This document shows, piece by piece, positions 52,460 through 63,977 of a stretch of 63,977 bases of DNA (position 1 is the first letter of the stretch; each line of letters starts with the position of its first letter). The DNA is from Heliobacteriaceae bacterium. Lineage in GTDB: Bacteria; Bacillota; Desulfitobacteriia; Heliobacteriales; Heliobacteriaceae. The position numbers and the translations under genes are program-made. Location: contig JAQWAU010000007.1 of the NCBI GenBank assembly GCA_028707535.1, forward strand, positions 1 to 63,977, in the 5' to 3' direction. The notes under the pieces are model-generated. The model searched no databases. It saw nothing but the letters and a program-made list of their open reading frames with translations, and was not told the DNA's origin.

Positions 52460-53599
52460 CTAATTTATCGTCTCTACTGTGGCCGGCTCGGCCACGGCAA
52501 ACCGGATTTTTACCGGGTGTTGCAGTAGTTTGCCGGACGCATTCTTGAGGTTTTTTACGCGCAATGTATACGTGCCGGGTAAATATCCATCTTCCGGAGG
52601 GATCACTTGCAAAGAATTACCGTCATCCCCTGGCTGTAACGTAACAGCGACACGTTTTCCGCAAGCATTCCGGACGGTAATTTCCCGCTCAGTCGATATC
52701 CCGCTCACATGTACCGGCCCGTTAAACCGGATCGTCCAGATTTTTTGGGGATCGACCCCCGTTTGTCCCGGAAATTCCTTGGTACCGGGGTCATCAACCG
52801 GTTCGACCGGATCCTCGGAAACCCCTTCTTCCTCAGGTGGTAAAATCTCACCCGCAGTATCGGTCACTTCAACCGGGCAAATCTCGTTTACGTTACCATC
52901 CGGGGACGTTACCGTTACCGTTGCGGTCCCAACTCCTACCGCAGTCACTTTACAGGCTACCCCAACCTGGTTAACAACGACGACCGCCGGATCACTGGTG
53001 GCCCAGACAAGCTCCCTTTTAAGCGGGCTGGCACTAGCCGGCGTGATCATGGCCACCAAAGTTCCCGTCCGGCCGACCTTCAGCTCTAGATCGTCCTGGT
53101 TCAACCGCAAACCGGTCACTTGTTGGATAGACCCATCGTTTTGCTCCTCATCTGGTTCCTCAATTATTTCCTCATTAACAGTTACCACACATTCCGCCTG
53201 AAATTCCCCATCTACCGTCGACACAATTACGGTTGCGGTCCCCACATCAACTGGGGTTACCAGACACTGGTTCCCGTTACAATCGACCATCACCACATTC
53301 TCATCGCTAACCTGCCACACCACCGCTTGATTGGTCGCATTTTCCGGGGCAACGGTTGCAGTTACTGTCACCGGTTCCTCCCCAACGGTCAAGGTGAGGG
53401 CTCCGGGTGCCAAAGTTACCCCGCTAACCGGCACATTGACCGTCTCATTCTCCGGCGGTTGTTCTACCGGCGGTGTTTCGACCGCGCAAACCGGACTACC
53501 CCCAATAAATAGGGCAACCATTACCACCGCAGCAATAAATATCGCCAACTTTTCGCTCCACCCGGAAGCCTGCTTCCTCCGCACTAACAAATCAACCAT
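52460..53599 (-). CDS. Secreted protein with bacterial Ig-like (Big2) domains
   Basis: With the start at 53599 (AAGGAGCGGG site) the protein has 379 residues. A basic stretch and a hydrophobic signal segment (about 18-42) are followed by an acidic linker. Two Big2 domains follow (about 55-140 and 155-250) with V-T-L-A-P-G-A-L-T-L-T-V-G-E, L-R-L-N-Q-D-D-L-E-L-K-V-G and repeated V-G-T-A-T-V. An acidic proline-rich linker and a further beta-rich domain with an adhesion-like V-K-I-R-F-A-V end complete it. It is probably a cell-surface protein. Confidence 0.84.
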   Translation of the reverse strand: MVDLLVRRKQASGWSEKLAIFIAAVVMVALFIGGSPVCAVETPPVEQPPENETVNVPVSGVTLAPGALTLTVGEEPVTVTATVAPENATNQAVVWQVSDENVVMVDCNGNQCLVTPVDVGTATVIVSTVDGEFQAECVVTVNEEIIEEPDEEQNDGSIQQVTGLRLNQDDLELKVGRTGTLVAMITPASASPLKRELVWATSDPAVVVVNQVGVACKVTAVGVGTATVTVTSPDGNVNEICPVEVTDTAGEILPPEEEGVSEDPVEPVDDPGTKEFPGQTGVDPQKIWTIRFNGPVHVSGISTEREITVRNACGKRVAVTLQPGDDGNSLQVIPPEDGYLPGTYTLRVKNLKNASGKLLQHPVKIRFAVAEPATVETIN

Positions 53600-53630
53600 G
53601 CTTTCCCGCTCCTTTTCCCTTTTCAACTGA

Positions 53631-53664
53631 TCATTTGTTAAAGTCATTTGTTAAATAGTATAAT
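53631..53664 (+). promoter_or_regulatory. Promoter of the Crp/Fnr gene with a 12-bp direct repeat
   Basis: TCATTTGTTAAA occurs twice, at 53631-53642 and 53644-53655. A TATAAT lies at 53659-53664, and the TTGTTA of the first repeat is 18 bases upstream of it. The repeats overlap the -35 region, so they may be a regulator site or an artefact of local duplication. The plus-strand Crp/Fnr gene and the minus-strand surface gene diverge from here. Confidence 0.6.
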
Positions 53665-54451: not shown

Positions 54452-54493
54452 ATGCCAAACAGTGAATTACGGACGCTGCGGCAAAACAGTTAA
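54452..54493 (+). CDS. Micro-ORF of 13 codons with a strong Shine-Dalgarno
   Basis: AAGGAGG at 54440-54446 precedes an ATG by six bases. The frame reads M-P-N-S-E-L-R-T-L-R-Q-N-S and stops, overlapping the last bases of yhbH on the other strand. It may be a translated leader or the relic of a longer gene deleted here. Nothing shows a function. Confidence 0.3.
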   Translation: MPNSELRTLRQNS

Positions 54494-55635
54494 TTTGCCA
54501 CCGGCGTTGGTTTGAAAAACGTTTTTAAGGCTTGATAGACTTCACTCTTATCCCGGATCGTTACCGCCGAAAGTTTAGGATTTTCGATCTTATGAAAGGC
54601 ATTCATTAAGGTGCTGGCGAAATGTGACCGGACAATCTCACCATACCCGAACTGGTTTACTTTTGTCAGCAGTTCGTTCACCAACTGAACACACAACTCG
54701 TTATCGGACGAGAGATTATCCCCATCGGAAAAATGGAACGGATAAATATTGTAGTCCCGGGGAGGAAAACGGTGATTAATAATCTCTAAGGCCAATTGGT
54801 AAGCTGATGAACAGCGCGTTCCTCCCGATTCCCCTTTGGTGAAAAATTCTTCTTCGGTAACTTCTTTCGCTTCGGTATGGTGGGCGATAAACACGATCTT
54901 GACCGCCCGGTACTTGGTGCGTAAAAACCGGGTAGCCCAAAAGAAAAATGTCCGGGCAATATACTTTTCAAAGGTTCCCATCGAGCCGGAGGTGTCCATG
55001 ATGGCCAAGACCACGGCGTTGCTCTGCTGTTCGTGATGCACCTCCCAGGTCTTATACCGCAAATCATCCGGCAATACCGGATAAAAGCCGGGCTTTCCAT
55101 GCATCGCATTCCGTTTTAATGCTTCTAAAAGGGTTCGCTTCCGGTCGATATTGCCTTGTAGTCCCTTATTGCGAATGTCGGTGAACCGGTAAGCATCGTG
55201 CTCCAGTTCCGGCGCCCGTTTATCCTCCATGTTCGGCAATCCTAAATCGTCAAACAACAGCTCTTGGATTTCATCAATGTGGACATCTGTTTCATAGTAA
55301 TCCTTACCCGGGGCGGAGCCGGCCCCACCAGCTCCCTTTCCGGCTCCTTGCCGCAGGTCCCGCCCCAGGACATCACCGACTTTACTTTCCCCGTCCCCTT
55401 GGCCCGCATGTTTTTGTTTGTTGTAATCATACCGGATCCGGAACTCTTCCAATGAACGGATCGGCACTTTAACAATCTTTTTCCCGCCATGAATGATTAT
55501 TGCTTCTTCACTAATGATCTCGGCTAGATTTTTTTTGATCGCTTCCCTCACTTTTTCCTGGTGCCGGATTTGGTCCAGCTGTCCCTTACGGTGTAGCGAC
55601 CAATCATCCCGGGATAAAATAAATTCCGCAGTCAA
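54490..55635 (-). CDS. yhbH: Sporulation protein YhbH (DUF444 family)
   Basis: The 381-residue protein matches YhbH/YeaH (DUF444): an N-terminal F-I-L-S-R-D-D-W-S-L-H-R-K-G, an R-Y-D-Y-N-K-Q segment, and a von Willebrand A-like part with M-D-T-S-G-S-M-G-T. In Firmicutes yhbH is expressed in the mother cell early in sporulation with prkA and spoVR. Here prkA is split immediately upstream (12-bp gap) and no spoVR follows. Its promoter is probably shared with prkA, so its expression could depend on what happens to the element. Confidence 0.93.
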   Translation of the reverse strand: MTAEFILSRDDWSLHRKGQLDQIRHQEKVREAIKKNLAEIISEEAIIIHGGKKIVKVPIRSLEEFRIRYDYNKQKHAGQGDGESKVGDVLGRDLRQGAGKGAGGAGSAPGKDYYETDVHIDEIQELLFDDLGLPNMEDKRAPELEHDAYRFTDIRNKGLQGNIDRKRTLLEALKRNAMHGKPGFYPVLPDDLRYKTWEVHHEQQSNAVVLAIMDTSGSMGTFEKYIARTFFFWATRFLRTKYRAVKIVFIAHHTEAKEVTEEEFFTKGESGGTRCSSAYQLALEIINHRFPPRDYNIYPFHFSDGDNLSSDNELCVQLVNELLTKVNQFGYGEIVRSHFASTLMNAFHKIENPKLSAVTIRDKSEVYQALKTFFKPTPVAN

Positions 55636-55647
55636 GGCTCCTCCCCC

Positions 55648-56778
55648 CTAACGGTTCAAGAGTGAGCCGATGTACCGAAGCAATTCATTGCCACAAATCG
55701 GGCAATACCCGTGGTCTTCAATCAACCGGGCGGTGACCTCATTAACCCGTTTTAATTGTTCCGCATCAGGCGTACGGTTTGACGTGGTGATTTTTACTAC
55801 GTCCTTCAAGTCAGAAAACAGTTTCTTCTCAATTGCTTCCTTCAACCGTTCATGCGAAGTATAATCGAATGCTTTCCCCTTACGGGCGTAAGACGAAAGC
55901 CGGATTAAGATTTCTTCCCGGAAAGCCTTTTTGGCGTTTTCGGAAATACCGATCTGTTCTTCAATAGACCGCATCAGCTTTTCGTCCGGATCAATCTCCT
56001 CATCGGTAATTGGGTCCGTGAGCTTCATGCCATTACAAAATGCCTCGACATTGTCCAGGTAATTATTGAGGATCGTTCGGGCCGACTCTTCATAGGCGTA
56101 GACAAAGGCCCGTTGAACCTCCTTTTTAGCCAAATCATCGAACTCTTTCCGGCTAACCGCAATATAATTCAACAATCTTTCTTTTTCTTCCTTAGTAATC
56201 GAAGGATGCTGGTCCAATCCGTCTTTTAATGCCCTTAAGACGTCAAGGGCATTAATACATACGGTTTCTTTACGGATCAAAGCTGAAGACAAACGGTTAA
56301 TTACATAACGCGGGTCCACCCCGCTCATCCCCTCATCAACCGCCTCACCTTGCAGTTCGATGAGGTCTTTTTGTTTAAATCCTTCGACATCCTCACCATC
56401 ATACAGCCGCATTTTCTTGATCAGATCCATGCCCTGCTTTTTGGATTCTTTTAACCGCGACAACACGGAAAAAATGGCGGCGGTGCGTAAAGCATGCGGG
56501 GCGATATGAATATGCTGTAGATCAGACTGATCAATCAGTTTTTGGTAGATCTTTATCTCTTCGCTAACTTTGAGATTGTAAGGTACCTTAATGACAATAA
56601 TCCGGGACTGTAAAGCCTCGTTTTTCTTGTTGGCGATAAAGGACTTGTATTCATTTTCGTTGGTATGGGCACAGATCATTTCATCCGCACTAATCAAGGC
56701 AAACCGGCCCGCTTTAAAATTACCCTCCTGGGACAACGATAGCAGGTTCCACAGAAACTTCTCGTCACATTTTAACAT
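55648..56778 (-). CDS. prkA: PrkA serine protein kinase, C-terminal part only (gene split at 56778)
   Basis: The 376 codons correspond to the last 60% of PrkA (full-length family members have about 630 residues). It begins M-L-K-C-D-E-K-F, continues through F-K-A-G-R-F-A-L-I-S-A-D-E and E-A-L-Q-S-R, and keeps the G-I-S-E-N-A-K-K-A-F-R-E-E-I-L-I-R-L-S segment and the conserved end L-L-R-Y-I-G-S-L-L-N-R. The N-terminal AAA/kinase part with Walker A is absent. In intact genes this point reads V-E-M-L-K-C-D-E; here the codon before M-L is still GAG (Glu). The piece has no stop, frameshift or obvious decay. Either it is a recent pseudogene or it is rejoined to an upstream half by excision of the intervening element. 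Confidence 0.94.
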   Translation of the reverse strand: MLKCDEKFLWNLLSLSQEGNFKAGRFALISADEMICAHTNENEYKSFIANKKNEALQSRIIVIKVPYNLKVSEEIKIYQKLIDQSDLQHIHIAPHALRTAAIFSVLSRLKESKKQGMDLIKKMRLYDGEDVEGFKQKDLIELQGEAVDEGMSGVDPRYVINRLSSALIRKETVCINALDVLRALKDGLDQHPSITKEEKERLLNYIAVSRKEFDDLAKKEVQRAFVYAYEESARTILNNYLDNVEAFCNGMKLTDPITDEEIDPDEKLMRSIEEQIGISENAKKAFREEILIRLSSYARKGKAFDYTSHERLKEAIEKKLFSDLKDVVKITTSNRTPDAEQLKRVNEVTARLIEDHGYCPICGNELLRYIGSLLNR

Positions 56779-58336
56779 CTCCTAATTTGCTTAACCCCAC
56801 ACAATGGTCATTGCTTACGGGGAAACGGTAATGGATAGAGGCCTTAGAATCGCGTTTTCCATCCTTTTCAACCGTAAACATTTCTACCCGCCGGACCAGA
56901 ATCTTAAATAATTGCGCTTTTTTATCTTCGGATATGCCGGAATCAATTTCGCGTCCCAGTATTTCCAGGGCAGACTGAGCATCAATTGCTTCCCGCTCAG
57001 TACGACTGGCCGATTCCATCCGGGAAAATAAGAATTCTCTTCGCGCCGAAAGAGCGCCAATTTCGGACAACAAAGACCGTAATTCCGTTTCGGCTTCGTC
57101 ATCGGTGATTATTCCCCGGGCAGCTAAGGCAATTATCCGGCCCCGGGCATTTTGGGCATTGGTTATGCTTTGCTCAACCCCGGCCAGCTCCAGGCGAACC
57201 GGTTCCAGGTCTTTTTGCTCTCGTGAGAATCTTTTCTGGACCAAATCCCCTATTTTGCCGGGATTCTGGATGAATTCCTGAATATCAGCCCAGACCGCAT
57301 TTTCAATCACCTGTGCCCGTACCATTTTGGCGTTACACTGTTTTCCCTGGCCGATGTCGACGGCGCCGGTGCATCGGTAGTAGACCCGCCCCTCTTTGGC
57401 CGATCCGGCGTTCCCAACCATTGCCCGGCCACAGTGGCCACAAAAGATTAGGCCGCGCAATAAGTAATGACGGCCACGGCGGCCTCTGGCCACGTCGGCG
57501 TTTTCGACCAACTTGTTTTGAGTATCGGTAAATGCTTTTTCTTCAATGATGACCGGAACACCGATGCTTATTGTTTCTTTTTTTCGCTTCGACCGTCTTA
57601 AATAATTATATGTCCCTTTGTACGCCTCTGTACGGAGGATTATAGATATATGGCCGGCATGCCATTTACCGGTACTTTCGTTCTTTAAGCCTTTGGATTT
57701 TGACGGGGTAGGGATATTCCGGGCGTTAAGGTATTTGGCAATTTCGGTCGTGCTGTTGTTTTCGGCATAGAGGTTGAAGATAAGCCGCACCGTTTCCGCT
57801 TCCGGCTCAAAGATTTCCAAGCATCCATCTTGGCCGATGCGGTAGCCAAATGGCGGCGGTCCGGATACCCATTTCCCCTGTCTAGCCTTACTTTCTTTCC
57901 CTAGTTGCGTCCTCTCCAGGATTGTGTCCCTTTCCAAGGCTGCAATGCTTGCCAAGAGGGTCATGAAAAACTTACCTGTGGGCGTTCCTGTGTCAAATGC
58001 TTCGGTCATGCTTTTCAAGGAAACGCCGTTTGCTTCCAAAAACTCGTAAGTATCCAAAACATGCTTGACGCTCCGGGCCAGACGGTCCAAGCGGTATACG
58101 TATACCGCTTGGACTTTTTTTGCCCGGACATCTGCAAAAAGTCGGGAGCCGGCCGGGCGATCCGCCAGGGGAACGGTACCGCTGACCCCTTCATCGAGAT
58201 ACATCTCAAAATCGCTAACGCCGGATTCAGGACCATGCAAATCAAAATATTTTCGGGCAAAGTCTGACTGAATCTCAATATTGCCGGATTCCATTTGCTC
58301 GTCGGTGGAAACCCTGCCATAAAATGCTACCCGCAT
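56765..58336 (-). CDS. Large serine site-specific recombinase
   Basis: Starting at 58336 (AGGAGG 12 bases upstream; frame open to 58372) the protein has 523 residues. The resolvase domain carries the nucleophile in F-Y-G-R-V-S-T-D (Ser 10), Y-R-L-D-R-L-A-R and A-S-I-A-A-L-E-R-D. A recombinase domain follows (P-P-F-G-Y-R), then a zinc ribbon (C-G-H-C-G-R-A-M ... C ... C) and a coiled-coil region. This is the SpoIVCA/phiC31-integrase type that cuts at two specific sites. It is encoded directly beside the prkA break, pointing into prkA, with 14 bp of overlap. This is where such recombinases sit in phage and skin elements. Confidence 0.95.
   Translation of the reverse strand: MRVAFYGRVSTDEQMESGNIEIQSDFARKYFDLHGPESGVSDFEMYLDEGVSGTVPLADRPAGSRLFADVRAKKVQAVYVYRLDRLARSVKHVLDTYEFLEANGVSLKSMTEAFDTGTPTGKFFMTLLASIAALERDTILERTQLGKESKARQGKWVSGPPPFGYRIGQDGCLEIFEPEAETVRLIFNLYAENNSTTEIAKYLNARNIPTPSKSKGLKNESTGKWHAGHISIILRTEAYKGTYNYLRRSKRKKETISIGVPVIIEEKAFTDTQNKLVENADVARGRRGRHYLLRGLIFCGHCGRAMVGNAGSAKEGRVYYRCTGAVDIGQGKQCNAKMVRAQVIENAVWADIQEFIQNPGKIGDLVQKRFSREQKDLEPVRLELAGVEQSITNAQNARGRIIALAARGIITDDEAETELRSLLSEIGALSARREFLFSRMESASRTEREAIDAQSALEILGREIDSGISEDKKAQLFKILVRRVEMFTVEKDGKRDSKASIHYRFPVSNDHCVGLSKLGDVKM
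56766..56785 (-). other. Probable attachment-site junction between prkA and the element
   Basis: On the minus strand the bases GAGATGTTAAAATG read both as the end of the serine recombinase (...D-V-K-M, stop) and as prkA codons E-M-L-K. The sequence to the right (higher coordinates) no longer matches PrkA. The crossover core should lie within or beside these bases. The recombinase stop TGA uses bases that belong to prkA. Confidence 0.65.
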
Positions 58337-58394
58337 AATAAGCCTGTACCTCCTTTTTATCTGCATAATCATTATACCAAAGGGGGTAGCCGGA

Positions 58395-58541
58395 ATGGAA
58401 ATTAAACGAGTATACTCCCAGGATCAGGAAGATTGGGAAATGATTATTGATTATCTCGTCCAATTTTTGGGTGAATTAATATTAGGGCCTTCCGAAGCCC
58501 AAATTTGGCCCAAGGACGAGTTTACCCCCCTCCCGAAGTAA
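58395..58541 (+). CDS. Small 48-residue protein divergent from the serine recombinase
   Basis: AGGGGG precedes the ATG. The protein is acidic and begins M-E-I-K-R-V-Y-S-Q-D, with a central amphipathic helix (M-I-I-D-Y-L-V-Q-F-L-G-E-L) and ends P-L-P-K. It starts 58 bp from the recombinase start in the opposite direction. No family was recognised. Small proteins next to serine integrases are sometimes directionality factors that switch them to excision; that role is only a possibility here. Confidence 0.6.
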   Translation: MEIKRVYSQDQEDWEMIIDYLVQFLGELILGPSEAQIWPKDEFTPLPK

Positions 58542-58612
58542 AAAGGCTATTTGGTCGGGTATTTCTCCGCTTCTTGGGGCTAAATTCGGGCTAAGAAAAT
58601 GGGTTGTGAGGA

Positions 58613-59731
58613 CTAGCAGTATCTGTAAGTGACCTCCACCCGATTATGTCCGAGATCCCTCGTCAACAGAAGTCTCGCCGCAGTGTCCAACGAGCGTTCA
58701 AATTTTTCGATTTCTTTTTGCCCGGCATGGCCATTCTCGATTCGAGAGTGGGAATTGCACATATCAAAAAATTTCGCATTGCTAACGACATCAGCTTCGG
58801 GCATTTTTTGCTTATCGCGCAGGGTTAATGACTGACTAATTTTATCACGATATTCAGCCAACCTCTTGACCGCGAATTCTTTCCTAAATCCATGCAGTCC
58901 CCGGTTTTCAATCCCCAGCCGGCCGGCTGCTTTCCGTACCCAATCATTCAAACGCCGCTGGTCAAGGCCGAAAATCGGATGGTCCGGGCCGTTTTTGCCA
59001 TATGAATTGACAATTCGCTTGAGTTCTCCGTGATATTCGCGGTCATACCGGACTGTCCGGGTTTTCCCGCCTTTTTCGAGCAGGGTAACGGTACCCCGGG
59101 CAAGATCAATTCGCGCCGGCCGGATGGCGTTGCCCATCCGGTCGGTAACTGTTTGCGACCGCGCCCCGGTTGCTCTTAAAAAGATTATGGCATCCCGGAC
59201 CTTTTGGCCATGTTTGGCCGCCAGGGCAGCCGTTAACCGGTCGGCATCGGCTGGCGAATAAGCCGGCCCATGCTGCGACCGCACGGAATCCCGCCGGCGA
59301 AGGGGAATATCCCATTTCTCTTGGCGCTCCTTTCGATCTGACGAGATTTGCCAGTCCACTTTCCCATAATGCTTATTAACCAAATTTTCCATCTTTTTAA
59401 GGGACTGAATTTCGGCCCGGACCGTATACGGGCTTAGCTGACCGTTTGCAACCTTTTCGGCCCGGGACAAAATAAATTGGTCCACCTCAGCTGGCGTGAT
59501 GCTCGTTAGCAAAAAAGAGCCGCCCCCCCTCCTTTCCGCGACTTGTTTTCCAAACCTTAATGCAATATTTTTATATTTTTCTTCGGTTTTTGCATTAAAT
59601 ATTTTAGCCGCAATACCCTGGCGGCCTTCATTTCTTATGATGGACCATTTTTGCTGGCCGAATGACCGGCCTAAAGCAAACAATTTCAGAATTTGTCGGC
59701 GATAATTTTTATTTTTCTTTTTCTTTGCCAT
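58613..59731 (-). CDS. Tyrosine recombinase / integrase
   Basis: The 372-residue protein has a very basic N-terminus, a SAM-like core-binding domain (about 80-145), and a catalytic domain with A-T-G-A-R-S-Q-T (Arg about 190), a K-G-G-K-T-R beta-hairpin, G-L-H-G-F-R-K-E-F (His, Arg) and L-G-H-N-R (His 362) with the nucleophile probably Tyr 371, one residue before the end. AGGAGGG precedes the ATG. It is 240 bp from the serine recombinase on the same strand. It may resolve element multimers, or belong to a second, nested element. Confidence 0.88.
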   Translation of the reverse strand: MAKKKKNKNYRRQILKLFALGRSFGQQKWSIIRNEGRQGIAAKIFNAKTEEKYKNIALRFGKQVAERRGGGSFLLTSITPAEVDQFILSRAEKVANGQLSPYTVRAEIQSLKKMENLVNKHYGKVDWQISSDRKERQEKWDIPLRRRDSVRSQHGPAYSPADADRLTAALAAKHGQKVRDAIIFLRATGARSQTVTDRMGNAIRPARIDLARGTVTLLEKGGKTRTVRYDREYHGELKRIVNSYGKNGPDHPIFGLDQRRLNDWVRKAAGRLGIENRGLHGFRKEFAVKRLAEYRDKISQSLTLRDKQKMPEADVVSNAKFFDMCNSHSRIENGHAGQKEIEKFERSLDTAARLLLTRDLGHNRVEVTYRYC

Positions 59732-59811
59732 ATTAATTGATCCCTCCTGCTGCCAAAACCGAAAAAAGGCAATAGCAAAGCTAGCTTTTACCTCTTTTTC
59801 CAGGCTCTTGT

Positions 59812-59851
59812 GGCTAATCGTTTCTTCGCGCGTGCGAAGAAACGATTAGCC
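59812..59851. repeat. 18-bp perfect inverted repeat
   Basis: GGCTAATCGTTTCTTCGC and its exact reverse complement are separated by four bases (GCGT). It lies about 80 bp upstream of the tyrosine recombinase start. No T run follows on either strand, so it is not a simple terminator. Possible roles are a recombinase binding site, a replication or transfer origin, or an operator. Confidence 0.92.
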
Positions 59852-60159
59852 TACGGCCGGCCCGGGCCGCTGCGTCCGTCGTCTGGCTTGCCCTCCCGGC
59901 CAGCCAGACTTCACCCCTTGCCGCGCCGCGACAAACTAAATTGTCTCCCCTCGACCCCCCTTGCGGTGGCCAAAATCGGCCTCACGCGCCCGCTGCGCGC
60001 CCTCCCCTTCCGGTGCACCCCCCCACCGGCACGGGTCATTGGCGTTGACCAGACAGCCGACTAACCCCTGTTGGGATCGGGCCGCCAACCAAGATGTCGG
60101 GGTATGTTATCGCTGCCGCGAGAGGAAGCGGCAACGAAAAACAGGAGGAAAAGAAAGAG
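59852..60159. other. GC-rich gene-free stretch
   Basis: This stretch has a base composition well above its surroundings and is rich in CCGG, GGCC and CCCC strings. ORFs here have unnatural composition. I see no credible gene, promoter or tRNA. Together with the inverted repeats on both sides it could be an origin region. Confidence 0.55.
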
Positions 60160-60186
60160 CCACGCCGGCCGGCTGGGCCGGCGTGG
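60160..60186. repeat. 11-bp GC-rich inverted repeat
   Basis: CCACGCCGGCC and GGCCGGCGTGG with a five-base loop. On the minus strand it is followed by CTCTTTCTTTTCC, so it might end a minus-strand transcript. Confidence 0.75.
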
Positions 60187-60250
60187 GAAGGATAAACGAT
60201 GATGGATACCAACCGAGTAAAATCCCAAGCGTTTGAGAATTTAAAACCAG

Positions 60251-60310
60251 AAAGCGGACACACCAAAAAGCGCCTGTTTCCAAGTCGCTAATCAGTTGTC
60301 CGCTTTTTCT
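60251..60310. terminator. Terminator-like hairpin downstream of the coiled-coil gene
   Basis: AAAGCGGACA (60251-60260) pairs with TGTCCGCTTT, enclosing the string ACACCAAAAAGCGCCT that recurs at about 60917. A T run follows on the plus strand. It lies downstream of the minus-strand gene at 60372-60686. A 30-codon plus-strand ORF at 60199-60291 overlaps it but is weakly supported. Confidence 0.6.
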
Positions 60311-60371
60311 AGCTTGAGCCTTTCGGGCCCCAAGCCTTACCATCCTTCAATTTCTTCGCTAACCGCGAAGG

Positions 60372-60686
60372 CTATTTCGCTATTTTCAACTCTTTTATTT
60401 CCGCTTCATGCAGCAACGTCCGAACTGCTAATGTCCCTAAGATCTTTTCGGATTTATCCTGTGACATTTCGATATTGGCAAGTTTTTCTTTGATGCCGGA
60501 AATATCACTTTTTATAGCCGTCATTTCGCCTTTCAGATAGCTCAAATTTTCGATAATGGCCGCTACTTCAGCCGATGTTTCCTCACCACGGTGTTCAACG
60601 GCTTTTAATAATTCGTACATCCCATCTTGTCTATTTTTCATTTGCTGAAGTTCGTTTAATATCAGCTGAATTCCCGCGTCATTCAT
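60372..60686 (-). CDS. Hypothetical coiled-coil protein of the mobile element
   Basis: GGAGG lies eight bases before the ATG. The 104 residues are almost entirely helical with heptads from about 5 to 85 (I-L-N-E-L-Q-Q-M, S-Y-L-K-G-E-M-T-A-I-K-S-D). Proteins of this kind are common in Firmicute prophages and conjugative elements; none has a function I know. It probably forms a transcript with the small ORF upstream, whose stop overlaps this ATG. Confidence 0.82.
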   Translation of the reverse strand: MNDAGIQLILNELQQMKNRQDGMYELLKAVEHRGEETSAEVAAIIENLSYLKGEMTAIKSDISGIKEKLANIEMSQDKSEKILGTLAVRTLLHEAEIKELKIAK

Positions 60687-60823
60687 TGTTCATGACCTCC
60701 TGGGGTCGCTCCTCGGGTCGTTAATCTGCTGTTCTTGTAAACTACACCCAAATCACCCAAATCAAAAACACAGAAAGCTATCAAATTTCCTAGATCCGCA
60801 AAAATAATCTCCCACTTAGGCAT
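60683..60823 (-). CDS. Small hypothetical protein, 46 residues
   Basis: An ATG at 60823 follows GGAAGGAG by four bases. The frame reads M-P-K-W-E-I-I-F-A-D and ends G-G-H-E-Q, with the stop overlapping the start of the coiled-coil gene (ATGA). The hydrophobic centre might be one membrane-associated helix. The open frame extends to 60880 but that part lies in a hairpin. Coding status is uncertain. Confidence 0.45.
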   Translation of the reverse strand: MPKWEIIFADLGNLIAFCVFDLGDLGVVYKNSRLTTRGATPGGHEQ

Positions 60824-60852
60824 TTCTCTCCTTCCCGTCGAAGAAGCCGCTC

Positions 60853-60883
60853 CGGTTGTCGGAGAAGCTGGCTCCGACAACCG
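60853..60883. repeat. 12-bp perfect inverted repeat
   Basis: CGGTTGTCGGAG and CTCCGACAACCG enclose a seven-base loop. On the plus strand TCATTTTTCC follows. It lies upstream of the two small minus-strand genes and downstream of the structured RNA region. Confidence 0.82.
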
Positions 60884-60922
60884 TCATTTTTCCCCGGACG
60901 GTAAGGGGTTTTTAAGTACACC

Positions 60923-60953
60923 AAAAAGCGCCTAATCAATCAGTCGCTTTTTT
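60923..60953. terminator. Terminator-like hairpin, candidate 3' end of the structured RNA
   Basis: AAAAAGCG (60923-60930) and CGCTTTTT (60945-60952) are paired arms with A/T-rich flanks that work on either strand. A related GGCAGGATT/AATCCTGCC hairpin lies at about 60967-60985 with CCCCTTTTT after it on the plus strand. Confidence 0.6.
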
Positions 60954-61009
60954 CGTCCGTTTTTCTGGCAGGATTTAATCCTGCCCCTTTTTCTTAATAT
61001 CCTTTAATT

Positions 61010-61501
61010 TCCAAAACAAACATCAAGAGCAGATATCTGCTCACCGGAGCTCCTTTCACCTGTCAGCAACGCGGTTCCCTTCTGAGACCTCCGGGAGTCC
61101 AGTCCGCTTTTGCACTGATTCAGGGGAGACGCTTATTCTGCGGTCTCCATGCCACAGCCCTTATAATAACTTTTACGACCGGGCCAGCCGCCAGTCCCAC
61201 TTATAGATCCCTTCCGAGATCCGTTCATGGGTGGTTACCAGGAATGTTGTCGTTTCCAGGTTCGCCAAAGAGGAAACTCCTTGGGGTTTCTGCTCACACC
61301 ATTTTGGGGAAAAATGGCATGCAGAGACTTGATGTCTTGTCCACCCGCCTGTTAGGTGTTGTTCGATGAAATCCTGCTGAACGGAATGCCGAACTTTTTT
61401 GGACCCCAGAAAAACTTAGTTTCTCCATGCACAGGCCATCCCTCGAAGCTACCTTTAAGCTTAGCTTATTGGTATCAGCGGTGCTTCTGATAAGAATTTA
61501 T
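61010..61501 (-). ncRNA. Candidate large structured RNA, second segment
   Basis: The minus strand shows many stem-loops and no credible ORF. Clear stems are TATCAG/CTGATA (61473-61492), GTTCG/CGAAC (61361-61394), CCATTTT/AAAATGG (61299-61317), GGAGAC/GTCTCC (61125-61148) and the 16-bp palindrome GAGCAGATATCTGCTC (61027-61042) near the 3' end, which is followed by T-rich sequence. An extended -10 box lies just upstream. No known family could be assigned by eye; length and ornateness resemble the large phage-associated RNAs (ROOL, GOLLD). It could also be the 3' half of one 1.1-kb RNA starting at 62048. Confidence 0.6.
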
Positions 61502-61507
61502 GACCTC

Positions 61508-61516
61508 ATTTTAGCA
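61508..61516 (-). promoter_or_regulatory. Extended -10 promoter element for the second RNA segment
   Basis: On the minus strand TGCTAAAAT fits the extended -10 pattern (TGnTANAAT). No good -35 box is seen upstream. Confidence 0.45.
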
Positions 61517-61559
61517 CGAGAGGGTCTTAAAGTATAGCCTTTTATCTTTTCTTTTAAAG

Positions 61560-62048
61560 CAAAAACAACGCCACCCGACACCCTGAAAATGGGCGCACTA
61601 AGTCAGCGTTTCGCTCGTCCGTTTATCCGCCTTTGTTGTCACCATGCGGCCACGGTGACGGCGGTTACGGCATACCGGCATTGCTTCATGTTTGCCAATA
61701 TGCGAAGGCTAAAGCCTCCAATAACAGGCGATTCCCTGCACGCCCTTGCAGACCGTGGAACTGCGTCGAAGTATGAAGCCTTCGCGCAGCACTTCGTGCC
61801 ACGGTACCCCGCTTTCCGTTACCGGCTATCGGGTATTCTCCCAGCTCTGCATTCCCGGTTTCCCTTCGATGCTGCTGGGTTGGCCTGCCCTTATACTCCC
61901 TGCGCTTTGGCATTCGGTATTACGACAGGCTGCTTCACCCTTGCATTCATGCGATGCTGCGGTGAAGCTTCTTGCCCATGCGCTCTATGACGCTGCGGCA
62001 AGTTTGTTTGCCTAGACGAAGCTTGGCAAACAAATATTGGATAGATAT
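61560..62048 (-). ncRNA. Candidate large structured RNA, first segment
   Basis: About 490 bases of dense secondary structure. On the minus strand: TTTGTTTGCC/GGCAAACAAA (62003-62034), CTTGCC/GGCAAG (61971-62002), GCTTCACC/GGTGAAGC (61932-61968), CCCAGC/GCTGGG with an inner GCAT/ATGC and a GG-GAAA-CC tetraloop (61840-61879), CCG-GTAA-CGG (61816-61825), ACCGTGG/CCACGGT with a long inner stem (61752-61805), and CCGCC/GGCGG enclosing GTCACC/GGTGAC (61627-61664). The GNRA tetraloops occur in the minus sense, fixing the likely strand. A sigma-A promoter lies just upstream. The plus-strand ORF across it has implausible composition. Confidence 0.68.
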
Positions 62049-62054
62049 GTGATT

Positions 62055-62083
62055 ATTGTACTATGGGTTCAATAGAAAGGCAA
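62055..62083 (-). promoter_or_regulatory. Sigma-A promoter for the structured RNA
   Basis: On the minus strand TTGCCT (62078-62083) and TACAAT (62055-62060) are 17 bases apart, with the transcript expected to begin near 62048, directly before the first stem-loop. Confidence 0.65.
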
Positions 62084-62085
62084 GA

Positions 62086-62107
62086 GGGCAACCATAAAGG
62101 TTGCCCT
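62086..62107. repeat. Hairpin upstream of the RNA promoter
   Basis: GGGCAACC and GGTTGCCC enclose ATAAA. It could terminate a minus-strand transcript coming from the right; the T tail is weak. Confidence 0.55.
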
Positions 62108-62213
62108 TAAAAAGACGCTACTTTCATAGCCAGGTGCTTAACCGATGTTAAGCTAAATATTCTAGTTTAAAAAATAGATTTACGAATTGATTTTACCACA
62201 TCCCCCTCTTCAA

Positions 62214-62250
62214 GAAAAGCCCCTCTCCTTCGTGAAAGGGCCTTTTCGTT
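62214..62250. terminator. Bidirectional terminator-like hairpin upstream of hicA
   Basis: AAAAGCCCCT...AGGGCCTTTT arms with inner CTCC/GTGA pairing and T-rich ends on both strands. It resembles the hairpin at 63813-63850. Confidence 0.65.
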
Positions 62251-62259
62251 TACACGTGT

Positions 62260-62265
62260 TATAAT
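62260..62265 (+). promoter_or_regulatory. Likely -10 box of hicAB
   Basis: TATAAT stands 44 bases before the hicA start, inside a short symmetrical region (ACACGTGT and ATACGT nearby) that could be the HicB operator. No good -35 box was seen. Confidence 0.5.
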
Positions 62266-62308
62266 ACGTTCTATACTAAGTTTAGGGAAGTTCAGGGGGG
62301 AAGGGACT

Positions 62309-62506
62309 TTGAAATCATATTCCTCGCGAGAAATCATTAAAATACTTATTAACGATGGATGGTATCACGTTAACACTGTTGGTGACCACCACCATTTCAA
62401 ACACCCAACGAGATCTGGCAAGGTAACAGTAACACACCCCAAAAAGGATGTGCCGCTCAAAACAGTATTAAGCATATTTGGACAGGCAGGAATTAAAATA
62501 AACTAA
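62309..62506 (+). CDS. hicA: HicA-family mRNA interferase toxin
   Basis: A TTG start follows AGGGGGGAAGGG. The 65-residue protein has the compact double-stranded-RNA-binding fold of HicA: S-S-R-E-I-I-K-I-L, D-G-W-Y, the active-site histidine region G-D-H-H-H-F-K-H-P, and V-T-V-T-H-P. HicA cleaves mRNAs when not bound by HicB. The antitoxin gene follows 40 bp downstream on the same strand. It probably maintains the mobile element. Confidence 0.95.
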   Translation: MKSYSSREIIKILINDGWYHVNTVGDHHHFKHPTRSGKVTVTHPKKDVPLKTVLSIFGQAGIKIN

Positions 62507-62546
62507 CCCTTGATCTATCACCCCCCTTTGAAAGGAGGTTCATTCC

Positions 62547-62954
62547 ATGAGAAGAGACCGATATATATTCCCCGCCATTTTTGATTATGCTGACGATGGT
62601 ATTTCCATTTCATTCCCCGACCTTCCGGGCTGTCTGCCCTGCGCTCACAGTGACGAAGAGGCGATCTCCAACGCTAAAGAGGCCATGGCCTTACACTTAT
62701 ATAGCATGGAGCAAGATGGGGATAAAATTCCGGAGCCTACTCCGGTAATGAAGCTGCATCCTCTAAGAAACCAGGTCGTTGTTCTGGTGGATGTTTGGAT
62801 GCCGGTCTATCGAAGTGCTATTGAAAACCGGGCTGTGAAAAAGACGCTGACCATTCCCAAGTGGTTAAACGATCTGGCAGAGCAGGAGAAAGTCAACTTC
62901 TCGCAGATTCTACAGGAAGCGCTTAAACAGAATCTTGGTATTAATAATCGTTAA
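62547..62954 (+). CDS. hicB: HicB-family antitoxin
   Basis: The 135-residue protein follows GAAAGGAGG. The N-terminal partly degraded RNase H fold has I-F-P-A-I-F-D-Y-A-D-D-G-I-S-I-S-F-P-D-L-P-G-C and the S-D-E-E-A-I-S-N-A-K-E segment; the C-terminal part (about 90-135) is a ribbon-helix-helix-like DNA-binding domain (K-K-T-L-T-I-P-K-W-L-N-D-L-A). It neutralises HicA and represses the operon. Confidence 0.95.
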   Translation: MRRDRYIFPAIFDYADDGISISFPDLPGCLPCAHSDEEAISNAKEAMALHLYSMEQDGDKIPEPTPVMKLHPLRNQVVVLVDVWMPVYRSAIENRAVKKTLTIPKWLNDLAEQEKVNFSQILQEALKQNLGINNR

Positions 62955-62989
62955 CCCTGGGTTTTGCGTGAATCTCCATTTGTCAAATA

Positions 62990-63021
62990 AAGAGCTCTGG
63001 CCGTAAGGCCGGGGCTTTTTT
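62990..63021 (+). terminator. Terminator of hicAB
   Basis: AGCTCTGGCC and GGCCGGGGCT arms enclose GTAA and end in six T on the plus strand. Confidence 0.85.
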
Positions 63022-63050
63022 GATGCATGAGAAAATCTTTTTAGTTATGC

Positions 63051-63079
63051 TTTACATACGACGTCTGATGTGGTACTTT
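63051..63079 (+). promoter_or_regulatory. Candidate promoter of the small HTH gene
   Basis: TTTACA (63051-63056) and TACTTT (63074-63079) are 17 bases apart. The -10 is weak but is preceded by TGTGG. Confidence 0.4.
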
Positions 63080-63099
63080 ACAGAGAAGGAGGTGTTGCA

Positions 63100-63291
63100 A
63101 TGTCCGATGTTAGAGAAGTTTTTATTACGAAAGAAGTTGCTGAAAAATTAAACCTCAATCCCAGTTATATTATTAGACTTGCCAAAAAGATTAATCTAAC
63201 CGCATCAGAAATGCGAGAAGCAGGCACCAGAAATTATCTTTTCAGCGAAACCGCAATTGAGAAGCTGCGTAAGGCAAAAACTCAAAAATAA
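63100..63291 (+). CDS. Small helix-turn-helix (excisionase/MerR-like) DNA-binding protein
   Basis: With the ATG at 63100 (AAGGAGGTG site) the protein has 63 residues; the frame is open to 63070. F-I-T-K-E-V-A-E-K-L-N-L-N-P-S-Y-I-I-R-L-A-K-K is a winged helix-turn-helix start of the HTH_17/excisionase type, and N-Y-L-F-S-E-T-A-I-E-K-L follows. It could be an excisionase for one of the recombinases or a regulator. It is 133 bp before the ImmA-like gene. Confidence 0.78.
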   Translation: MSDVREVFITKEVAEKLNLNPSYIIRLAKKINLTASEMREAGTRNYLFSETAIEKLRKAKTQK

Positions 63292-63362
63292 AAGGAAGTC
63301 CGTCTCTAGTTTGGCGACCTGAACGGACTTCCCACCACACAGCCTTCCGAAGAAGGTGTATA
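63285..63362 (-). ncRNA. Candidate small RNA on the minus strand
   Basis: A well-formed promoter on the minus strand (TTGCAC at 63392-63397, 17-base spacer, TATAAT at 63369-63374) is followed about 40 bases later by a terminator: GGAAGTCCGT (63294-63303) paired with ACGGACTTCC (63323-63332), then TTTTATTTTT. The RNA would be about 75-80 nt and antisense to the 3' end of the HTH gene. No ORF is in it. It could be an antisense regulator or part of a type I toxin-antitoxin pair. Confidence 0.58.
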
Positions 63363-63423
63363 CCTGTAATTATACGGGTGATACCTCCCTCGTGCAAGGC
63401 TGCATGATAAGGAGGGTTTTCTT

Positions 63424-63807
63424 ATGGCAAATGAGAATGGCATAATTCTCCGTGACGCTATAGATTTGTTAGCGAAAGAAAACGACCCGATATGGATTAA
63501 GTTGGTTCAACTGGCCGAAAATCGCGGTATTAGAGTGCTTTTGGCTAATAAGATTGCGAAAAATACTACTGGACTTTATATTCGTACTAAAGACGGAAGG
63601 AAGATAATTGCTTTGAAGGACAGTCTTGTTAGCAACGAACGGCGGGAAACCATGGCTCATGAATTGGCTCATGCGGTCTTACACTCAGGAAAAAAAGACT
63701 ATAATATCTGCCTGTATTTCGAAGGAGGGAAATACTGGGAATGCCTTGAAAATGAGGCTAATAACTTTGCGAGGAGATTGCTGCGTTTTTTGGATAGAAG
63801 ATATTAA
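63424..63807 (+). CDS. ImmA/IrrE-family metallo-endopeptidase
   Basis: The 127-residue protein has the zinc-protease motif H-E-L-A-H-A-V near residue 80 and an E-N-E-A-N-N-F-A-R-R-L helix where the third ligand (Glu) lies. AAGGAGGG precedes the ATG by eight bases. In ICEBs1 and phages, ImmA proteases cleave the immunity repressor and induce excision or lysis. A repressor gene of the ImmR type is not visible in the window. The HTH gene upstream could be a partner, but is small. Confidence 0.86.
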   Translation: MANENGIILRDAIDLLAKENDPIWIKLVQLAENRGIRVLLANKIAKNTTGLYIRTKDGRKIIALKDSLVSNERRETMAHELAHAVLHSGKKDYNICLYFEGGKYWECLENEANNFARRLLRFLDRRY

Positions 63808-63812
63808 GTTGA

Positions 63813-63850
63813 AAAAAAGCCCCTCTCTCTTGCGAGAAAGGGGCTTTGCA
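63813..63850. terminator. Terminator between convergent genes
   Basis: AAAGCCCCT and AGGGGCTTT arms with A and T flanks close the ImmA gene on the plus strand and the partial gene on the minus strand. Confidence 0.82.
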
Positions 63851-63856
63851 TTTGTC

Positions 63857-63977
63857 TTAGTAATCTTCCCACTCAATTATGTCAATCGCCGGACCATATG
63901 CTCCTTCGGGTCTGGGTAGGTCTTGGGTAAACAGGAATTGATATGCTTTTTCGGTTACTTTGTTGCCTTTTTTGTCC
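63857..63977 (-). CDS. Hypothetical protein, C-terminal 39 codons (cut by the window edge)
   Basis: The minus-strand frame is open from the window edge to a TAA at 63857-63859 and reads D-K-K-G-N-K-V-T-E-K-A-Y, then L-P-R-P-E-G-A-Y-G-P-A-I-D-I-I-E-W-E-D-Y. It does not match the missing N-terminal part of PrkA, so the element continues. No family was recognised. Confidence 0.6.
   Translation of the reverse strand, partial: DKKGNKVTEKAYQFLFTQDLPRPEGAYGPAIDIIEWEDY

Follow-up and report, generated by a model that had tools for sequence, protein, structure and literature searches.

A prkA gene split at a large serine recombinase in a Heliobacteriaceae genome, and the recurrent interruption of prkA in other spore-former lineages

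prkA is a conserved sporulation and stress gene of the prkA-yhbH-spoVR cluster. The window analysed here, a stretch of 63,977 bases that makes up the whole of contig C92 of a Heliobacteriaceae draft genome (G000; 2.09 Mb in 100 contigs, 87.6% complete), carries a 3' piece of prkA whose upstream end lies in the gene for a large serine recombinase, and the question that this locus raises is whether the gene has been lost or whether it could be rebuilt by excision of the element to which the recombinase belongs. The original prediction, made from the DNA letters, had proposed the latter, in the form of a skin-like element excised during development. We find that prkA is split in G000, that its two pieces have a dinucleotide in common at which joining restores the frame, and that several families of recombinases have struck prkA, at five sites in all, across different lineages of spore formers. 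Probably prkA is a new target of the skin/SPbeta class, here in a form with several elements per gene, and the elements would be removed when the cell sporulates.

The two pieces of prkA and their common core

The 3' piece of prkA (55648..56781, minus strand) comprises codons 255-631 and the stop, in the numbering of the joined G000 prkA that is used throughout. It encodes the last 377 PrkA residues, in which the final part of the AAA domain (PF08298 242-356) is followed by the entire C-terminal domain (PF06798 1-255); Pfam and NCBIfam models were scored against their family cut-offs. As the original prediction had claimed, the piece is in frame, its break lies at a recombinase gene, and yhbH, the host gene that follows prkA (54490..55635, minus strand; TIGR02877 spore_yhbH, 560 bits, cut-off 468), starts 12 base pairs (bp) past the prkA stop. 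The large serine recombinase, which we call recA-type (56765..58336, minus strand; 523 residues with Resolvase, Recombinase and Zn_ribbon_recom domains), ends with a stop at 56767-56765, so that its open reading frame (ORF) overlaps the prkA piece by 17 bp; its start was taken to be the ATG at 58336 from a Shine-Dalgarno-like GGAGG and from its relatives, the longest ORF starting at 58372. The earlier label of a SpoIVCA-type enzyme holds broadly, in that the protein is a large serine recombinase, but among named NCBIfam models the closest is XisF (NF041201), which belongs to the fdxN element of cyanobacteria and which the protein matches at 138.7 bits, below the cut-off of 375. Its kinship to SprA is not close, the best-listed phage matches being 34% identical (Paenibacillus phages Harrison and Paisley).

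A search of the genome's contigs located codons 1-254 of prkA on contig C58, where they are followed by foreign DNA. This N-terminal half covers profile positions 2-245 and the window half 240-356, which places the two breaks at complementary points. The predicted half of about 255 codons thus exists and stops where it should, but it lies on C58, and the residue before the break is Q254 rather than the V of the predicted V-E-M-L. A dinucleotide AG is common to both junctions: one copy lies at 56782..56783 (minus strand) in the window, and the second, on C58, makes up the final two positions of codon 254 (L004:5485-5486). Joining at this proposed crossover reads M-E-F-Q-E-M-L-K-C, which restores F-Q-E-M-L, and leaves a frame open over 631 codons. 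The joined PrkA of 631 residues aligns without gaps, end to end, to the intact PrkA of three genomes of the same family (G001, G002 and G004; 84.0, 85.6 and 85.9% identity), and the natural uninterrupted site reads MEFQEMLK in all four intact same-family copies. Precise recombination at a short common core would accordingly return an intact prkA reading frame. No whole prkA was found in the G000 draft, at its 87.6% completeness. None of the three outcomes that the original prediction had named against itself, namely a missing N-terminal half, a frame broken by the joining, or a full prkA elsewhere in the genome, has occurred, and the split of prkA is confirmed.

From its edge at the prkA piece, the element fills the window to its end (56782..63977; 7,196 bases), and on C58 it continues past the 5' piece for 4,169 bases to the end of the contig. 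The last 400 bases of C58 and C92 have no 15-mer in common, so the middle of the element is missing from the assembly and its size is at least 4,169 + 7,196 bases.

The host itself is predicted, from its genes alone, to form spores. G000 encodes Spo0A and SpoIVA over their cut-offs, and its sigma-E/K-type factors score below the cut-off of the sigK model, which the B. subtilis control also misses. Its sigK is likewise split, near model codon 68, by a 2,967-bp element contained in one contig (C17, L097:1309-5058) that encodes a major facilitator superfamily transporter, a 67-residue ORF and a serine recombinase of 532 residues; joining at TCAA restores an in-frame ...HIVKKFDGTGEN... This break differs in position from the one near profile 110-125 in G001 and G022. 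In G001, a single-contig genome, the two sigK pieces (profile 5-125 and 111-226) lie on opposite strands at C1:2751023 and C1:3128724, about 377 kb apart, as after a large inversion or the displacement of one piece.

Recurrence at codon 254 and at four further sites

We looked for further cases in a pattern scan of the GTDB species collection, in a sample of 398 genomes of the phylum and in a viral collection. The GTDB scan for relatives of the window recombinase returned 12 loci, and in nine of these (from Moorella, Ammonifex, Desulfocucumis and Peptococcaceae) prkA resumes behind the recombinase at codon 252-255, directly in eight and 1.9 kb on in L015. In the 398-genome sample, recombinase matches of at least 57% identity lie at prkA in four of four places (G000, G176, G286 and G450), whereas those of at most 43% identity do so in none of 11 (judged from flanks of about 1.5 kb), which argues that the association of this recombinase with prkA is more than chance. 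One of the five recombinase loci in the viral collection shows prkA (L038). Ten named loci (L006, L007 and L009-L016) were followed into their genomes, and complementary pieces that meet at codon 254 (site A) were present in six: Moorella mulderi, Ammonifex SURF_55, Peptococcaceae BRH_c4b and BRH_c4a, Desulfocucumis palustris and HOT.CON.130. The same holds for G176. A further locus, from a genome titled Desulfovibrio sp. (DeMMO6_25, L008), has the recombinase-prkA junction as in Ammonifex and is probably a Firmicute contig in the wrong bin.

Site A is one of five places at which prkA is broken, the others being codon 138 (site C), 288 (site B), about 467 (site E) and about 504 (site D). Among 21 viral-collection loci that match prkA, 15 break at one of these sites (A in one, B in eight, C in five and D in three, two loci having both B and C) and six are not broken at sites A-D. 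A comparison of four prkA-inserted viral contigs with named phages gave no match for two and short or weak matches for the other two. The 398-genome sample has a PrkA match in 116 genomes, and the AAA domain falls into two pieces at sites A-C in G000 and six more (G083, G118, G159, G176, G286 and G450), a count that is blind to sites D and E and that leaves out four genomes with prkA broken at or near contig ends (G163, G051, G080 and G230). Site B has a recombinase family of its own, the recB-type, whose members in the 398-genome sample lie at prkA site B in five of six places (at least 65% identity), the sixth (46%) lying elsewhere; the window recombinase is 29% identical to it over part of its length. 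The enzymes at sites A and E and at G450's site C are serine recombinases by Pfam, those at site B by similarity to SprA and by NCBIfam serine-recombinase models, and those at site D by tblastn similarity only. At site C of the viral contigs L044 and L063, no recombinase was found on the codon-138 side of the stretch examined. On another contig (L045:8032-10653), yhbH appears to be interrupted near codon 350 and is directly followed by a serine recombinase, and prkA there starts at codon 138.

Some copies of prkA are in more than two pieces. In G176, placed in the genus of M. mulderi, the whole arrangement lies on one strand of a single 429-kb contig: a 10.4-kb element separates codons 1-254 from a middle piece of 35 codons, and a 48.5-kb element separates this piece from codons 288-631. 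M. mulderi (for which G286 is taken) has three pieces in the same order over two contigs. The prkA of D. palustris lies in four pieces on three contigs (codons 1-254, 254-288, 288-467 and 468-631), the links between contigs being unassembled; its middle contig carries a recA-type recombinase, the short piece and a recB-type recombinase, and its last two pieces are 10.9 kb apart, with a serine recombinase of 522 residues reaching the last piece. All pieces lie on one contig and on the same strand in G176, in G083 with an element of 16.9 kb, in G118 with one of about 4.3 kb and in HOT.CON.130 with one of 17.8 kb, so the split is no assembly artefact. Contig C130 of D. palustris (L131:4228-6286) holds, next to the first piece, another fragment of prkA that has diverged (codons 34-129, 67%) as well as broken remains of a recA-type recombinase, which may be left over from an earlier event.

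The elements range from about 4.3 kb in G118, through 6.6 kb in M. mulderi, to 48.5 kb. The G118 element encodes a recombinase, a HEPN and nucleotidyltransferase pair and other small ORFs, and the persistence of so small an element is as expected if excision is what is selected. Ten proteins of the 10.4-kb element of G176 were scanned; they include an S24/helix-turn-helix repressor, a ParE-type toxin and an IS3-like transposase, and none matches a phage structural protein. In G083 the 16.9-kb site B element (L018/L019, C10:46.6-63.5 kb) encodes an ACR3 arsenite efflux pump, which scores over its cut-off, and a TtrA-like molybdoenzyme, which does not reach its own. The molybdoenzyme has TtrB/DsrO- and NrfD/DsrP-like partners, mostly below their cut-offs, and by our reading an ArsR-like regulator is present too, so that the element looks like a respiratory and arsenic island inside a sporulation gene. 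In the third prkA element of D. palustris (L130:2354-13271, C45) two ThiC genes stand side by side, each above the Pfam cut-off, along with what we read as sensor and GGDEF-like proteins.

Selection, empty sites and competing explanations

We compared G176 with G286 by synonymous (dS) and nonsynonymous (dN) divergence. Over the three prkA pieces dS is 0.378 and dN 0.013 (dN/dS 0.034), and the 35-codon middle piece taken alone gives a dN/dS of 0.011. The recombinases diverge synonymously to an extent similar to the host genes: dS is 0.445 for the recA-type (dN/dS 0.040) and 0.237 for the recB-type (dN/dS 0.093), next to 0.347 for yhbH and 0.507 for spoVR, which argues that the elements are roughly as old as the split between the two species. 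Because the pieces are constrained and the recombinases show host-like synonymous divergence, the split gene has been kept, and we conclude that in these two genomes selection maintains both the prkA pieces and the recombinases. When G000 is set beside its intact relatives, and G118 beside G159, dS is mostly saturated and the ratio unusable, so dN alone was compared: each G000 half differs from four intact relatives by a dN of 0.089-0.141, and three intact copies differ among themselves by 0.037-0.128.

Natural empty sites agree with the joins. In the genus of M. mulderi, all six uninterrupted copies listed from the sample encode at sites A and B what the joins predict, apart from conservative differences, which are M or V just past site B and I/M and I/K ahead of site A. 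Comparison with related genomes, which the original prediction had proposed as a check, supports it, with insertion at the same codon in many relatives and empty sites that match the joined sequences.

In the mechanism that we propose, a prkA-specific large serine recombinase would have placed an integrative element at the boundary of codons 254 and 255. When the cell sporulates, and probably within the mother cell, this enzyme, directed by a small directionality factor, would recombine the two AG-core junctions, releasing the element as a circle and restoring an uninterrupted prkA frame, while the spore would retain the unexcised copy. In other lineages, elements that bring serine recombinases of their own have entered prkA at four more sites, alone or in combination, and copies with several elements would need up to three excisions per PrkA. 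As far as sequence goes, the interpretation of the original prediction, a gene split by an element that would be excised during development, is supported.

Several observations weigh against this proposal. In G000 the assembly does not close the element, and a gap separates C58 from C92, whose adjacency is presumed. Three of the 12 GTDB loci lack prkA in the stretch examined, namely L011, L016 (a partial recombinase) and L017 (28% identity); the contig of L011 ends 0.7 kb on, and its genome has, elsewhere, a 5' prkA piece that ends at site A. In the viral collection, four of the five recombinase loci (L039-L042, 52-56% identity) show no prkA in the 1 to 2.5 kb behind the gene. Three of the ten named genomes have one side only (G468, G470 and G471) and one has no prkA (G473); the 3' piece of HOT.CON.130 (G469) carries a deletion and a frame shift; and G450 breaks at sites C and A with no middle piece found in its assembly. 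Lastly, a sigma-E or sigma-K promoter clearly above shuffles was not found in 15 recombinase upstream regions scanned on both strands (the lowest single shuffle fraction was 0.04 among 30 tests), and a sigma-A-like extended -10 element, TGNTATA(A/C)T, stands in seven of the 15, where 0.12 would be expected from mononucleotide shuffles.

With promoters of this sigma-A-like rather than sigma-E/K type, developmental control would have to act through the directionality factor. A candidate for that role is a 48-residue ORF divergent from the window recombinase (58395..58541, plus strand), from which it is separated by a promoter region (58337..58394) with an extended -10, TGGTATAAT, directed towards the recombinase. 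Look-alikes stand in the same position in L006, L024 and L038, and the C58 end of the element has a related small ORF (L004:6016-6117), both similarities being judged by eye. The recombinases of SPbeta and of the C. difficile skin element are described as constitutive in PMC5595907, and the timing of SPbeta excision as set by the factor SprB (gene sprB) in PMC6957869; for this reason the promoter result neither supports nor excludes developmental control.

The rival that survives best, although we judge it unlikely, is ordinary lysogeny, in which prkA, being conserved and dispensable for growth, would be a popular attachment site for prophages or integrative and conjugative elements. These would leave only on induction or transfer, prkA would be off in lysogens, and excision would not be tied to sporulation. 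The breaks at sites A-D in viral-collection loci, many of them in contigs of tens of kb, fit this explanation, as do the vegetative look of the recombinase promoter in seven of 15 cases and the four viral loci without prkA, which could be free phages or use other targets. The recombinase C-terminus is longer in those four loci. Lysogeny sits poorly with the persistence of the small elements of G118 and M. mulderi and with a host that already carries a split sigK; and recombinases with host-like dS and a dN/dS of 0.04-0.09, beside prkA pieces at 0.034 in two Moorella-genus genomes, would be hard to explain if prkA were never restored.

It is improbable that the insertion simply inactivated prkA and that its pieces are decaying. 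The damaged 3' piece of G469, and the extra fragment and recombinase remnants in D. palustris, are what such decay would look like, but the G000 pieces are free of stops and differ from intact kin by a dN close to that among intact copies, and the Moorella pieces are under the constraint given above. We give still less credence to a split protein, in which the pieces would be translated separately and work together without DNA excision: the second codon past the break is an ATG, at which the ORF finder starts, but the GGAG ahead of it abuts it directly, closer than a ribosome site usually lies. Moreover, the AAA domain is severed by the break, and a middle piece of 35 codons, as in Moorella and D. 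palustris, is hardly credible as a subunit. An assembly or binning chimera, which a draft of this fragmentation with halves on two contigs without overlapping ends might suggest, is contradicted by G176 with all pieces on one contig and by the recurrence of this recombinase-prkA junction, at an identical codon, in many more genomes and inside single contigs, and can be set aside.

Other features of the element, known systems and meaning

The remaining element genes in the window include a tyrosine-recombinase-like protein (58613..59731, minus strand; NF040815 at 33 bits, below its cut-off of 220, and without a Pfam match), a HicA toxin and HicB antitoxin pair (62309..62954, plus strand; PF07927 and PF15919 over cut-off) and an ImmA/IrrE-type peptidase (63424..63807, plus strand; PF06114 over cut-off). 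Besides the small ORF, the C58 part of the element has genes for a protein with a DnaB_2 domain and for a short one that resembles HTH_17 below the cut-off, along with two long ORFs, of which one is the Big_2-domain protein at L004:8338-9654. Outside the element, window positions 52460-53647 encode a long protein that we read as having Ig-like repeats.

The skin element in sigK of B. subtilis and C. difficile resembles the G000 element in that a large serine recombinase lies in a split sporulation gene, a short common core restores the frame and the host has sporulation genes; it differs in that here prkA is the target, there are several sites per gene, excision is inferred and the recombinases show no clear sigma-E/K promoter signal. 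In SPbeta, which splits spsM and is served by SprA and SprB, the recombinase also adjoins one gene piece, and over 99% of its length the recB-type of site B matches SprA/YokA of SPbeta-group phages at 43.5-44.5% identity. Unlike SPbeta, the site B elements target prkA, measure about 4 to 48 kb and in one case carry arsenite/oxyanion cargo, and the window's site A recombinase belongs to another subfamily (nearest named phages at 34%). The split sporulation genes named in the accessible parts of PMC4191935, PMC6957869 and PMC10747680 are sigK, spsM, spoVFB, spoVR, gerE and yabG, and the elements vrin (spoVR), vfbin (spoVFB), gin (gerE) and yin (yabG) are likewise intervening elements in late or mother-cell sporulation genes. 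None of these four is in prkA, and those texts describe none with more than one element per sporulation gene. spoVR, the target of vrin, follows prkA-yhbH in G083, G118 and the Moorella genomes. The elements of heterocyst-forming cyanobacteria (in nifD, fdxN with XisF, and hupL) share with prkA the occurrence of multiple elements per gene, nifD having four and 10 of 87 genes more than one according to the part of PMC4874684 consulted, and XisF is the best NCBIfam model, below cut-off, for the window recombinase; they differ in interrupting nitrogen-fixation genes and in acting in the terminal heterocyst rather than a spore mother cell.

The original prediction had noted no described prkA case, and we found none among the matches listed, as judged by title and start of abstract, in the open full-text literature, which covers neither supplementary files nor most subscription papers; a Thermus aquaticus paper containing both 'prkA' and 'prophage' proved unrelated. 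A B. anthracis prkA null mutant is described as growing normally and sporulating poorly (PMC13001217).

We lean, with less assurance than for excision during sporulation as such, towards a wider reading, in which prkA is split at up to five sites by independent elements, up to three at once, each excised in the mother cell by its own recombinase before a PrkA could be produced. The arrangement would then act as a coincidence gate at the DNA level on late sporulation and as a recurrent safe harbour for elements, kept by the host's need to sporulate. In the sources consulted, known rearrangement of sporulation genes concerns a handful of genes, each described with one element; here a single gene has been entered at five places, by recombinases of several families and in different lineages of spore formers, and the three-piece copies under purifying selection, together with the four-piece copy, are a spore-former counterpart of the multiply interrupted nifD. 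The elements also offer a collection of natural serine integrases whose target sites are defined and lie in a conserved gene, and the named strains Moorella mulderi DSM 14980 and Desulfocucumis palustris NAW-5 would allow tests of ordered multiple excision, of directionality control and of the role of PrkA.

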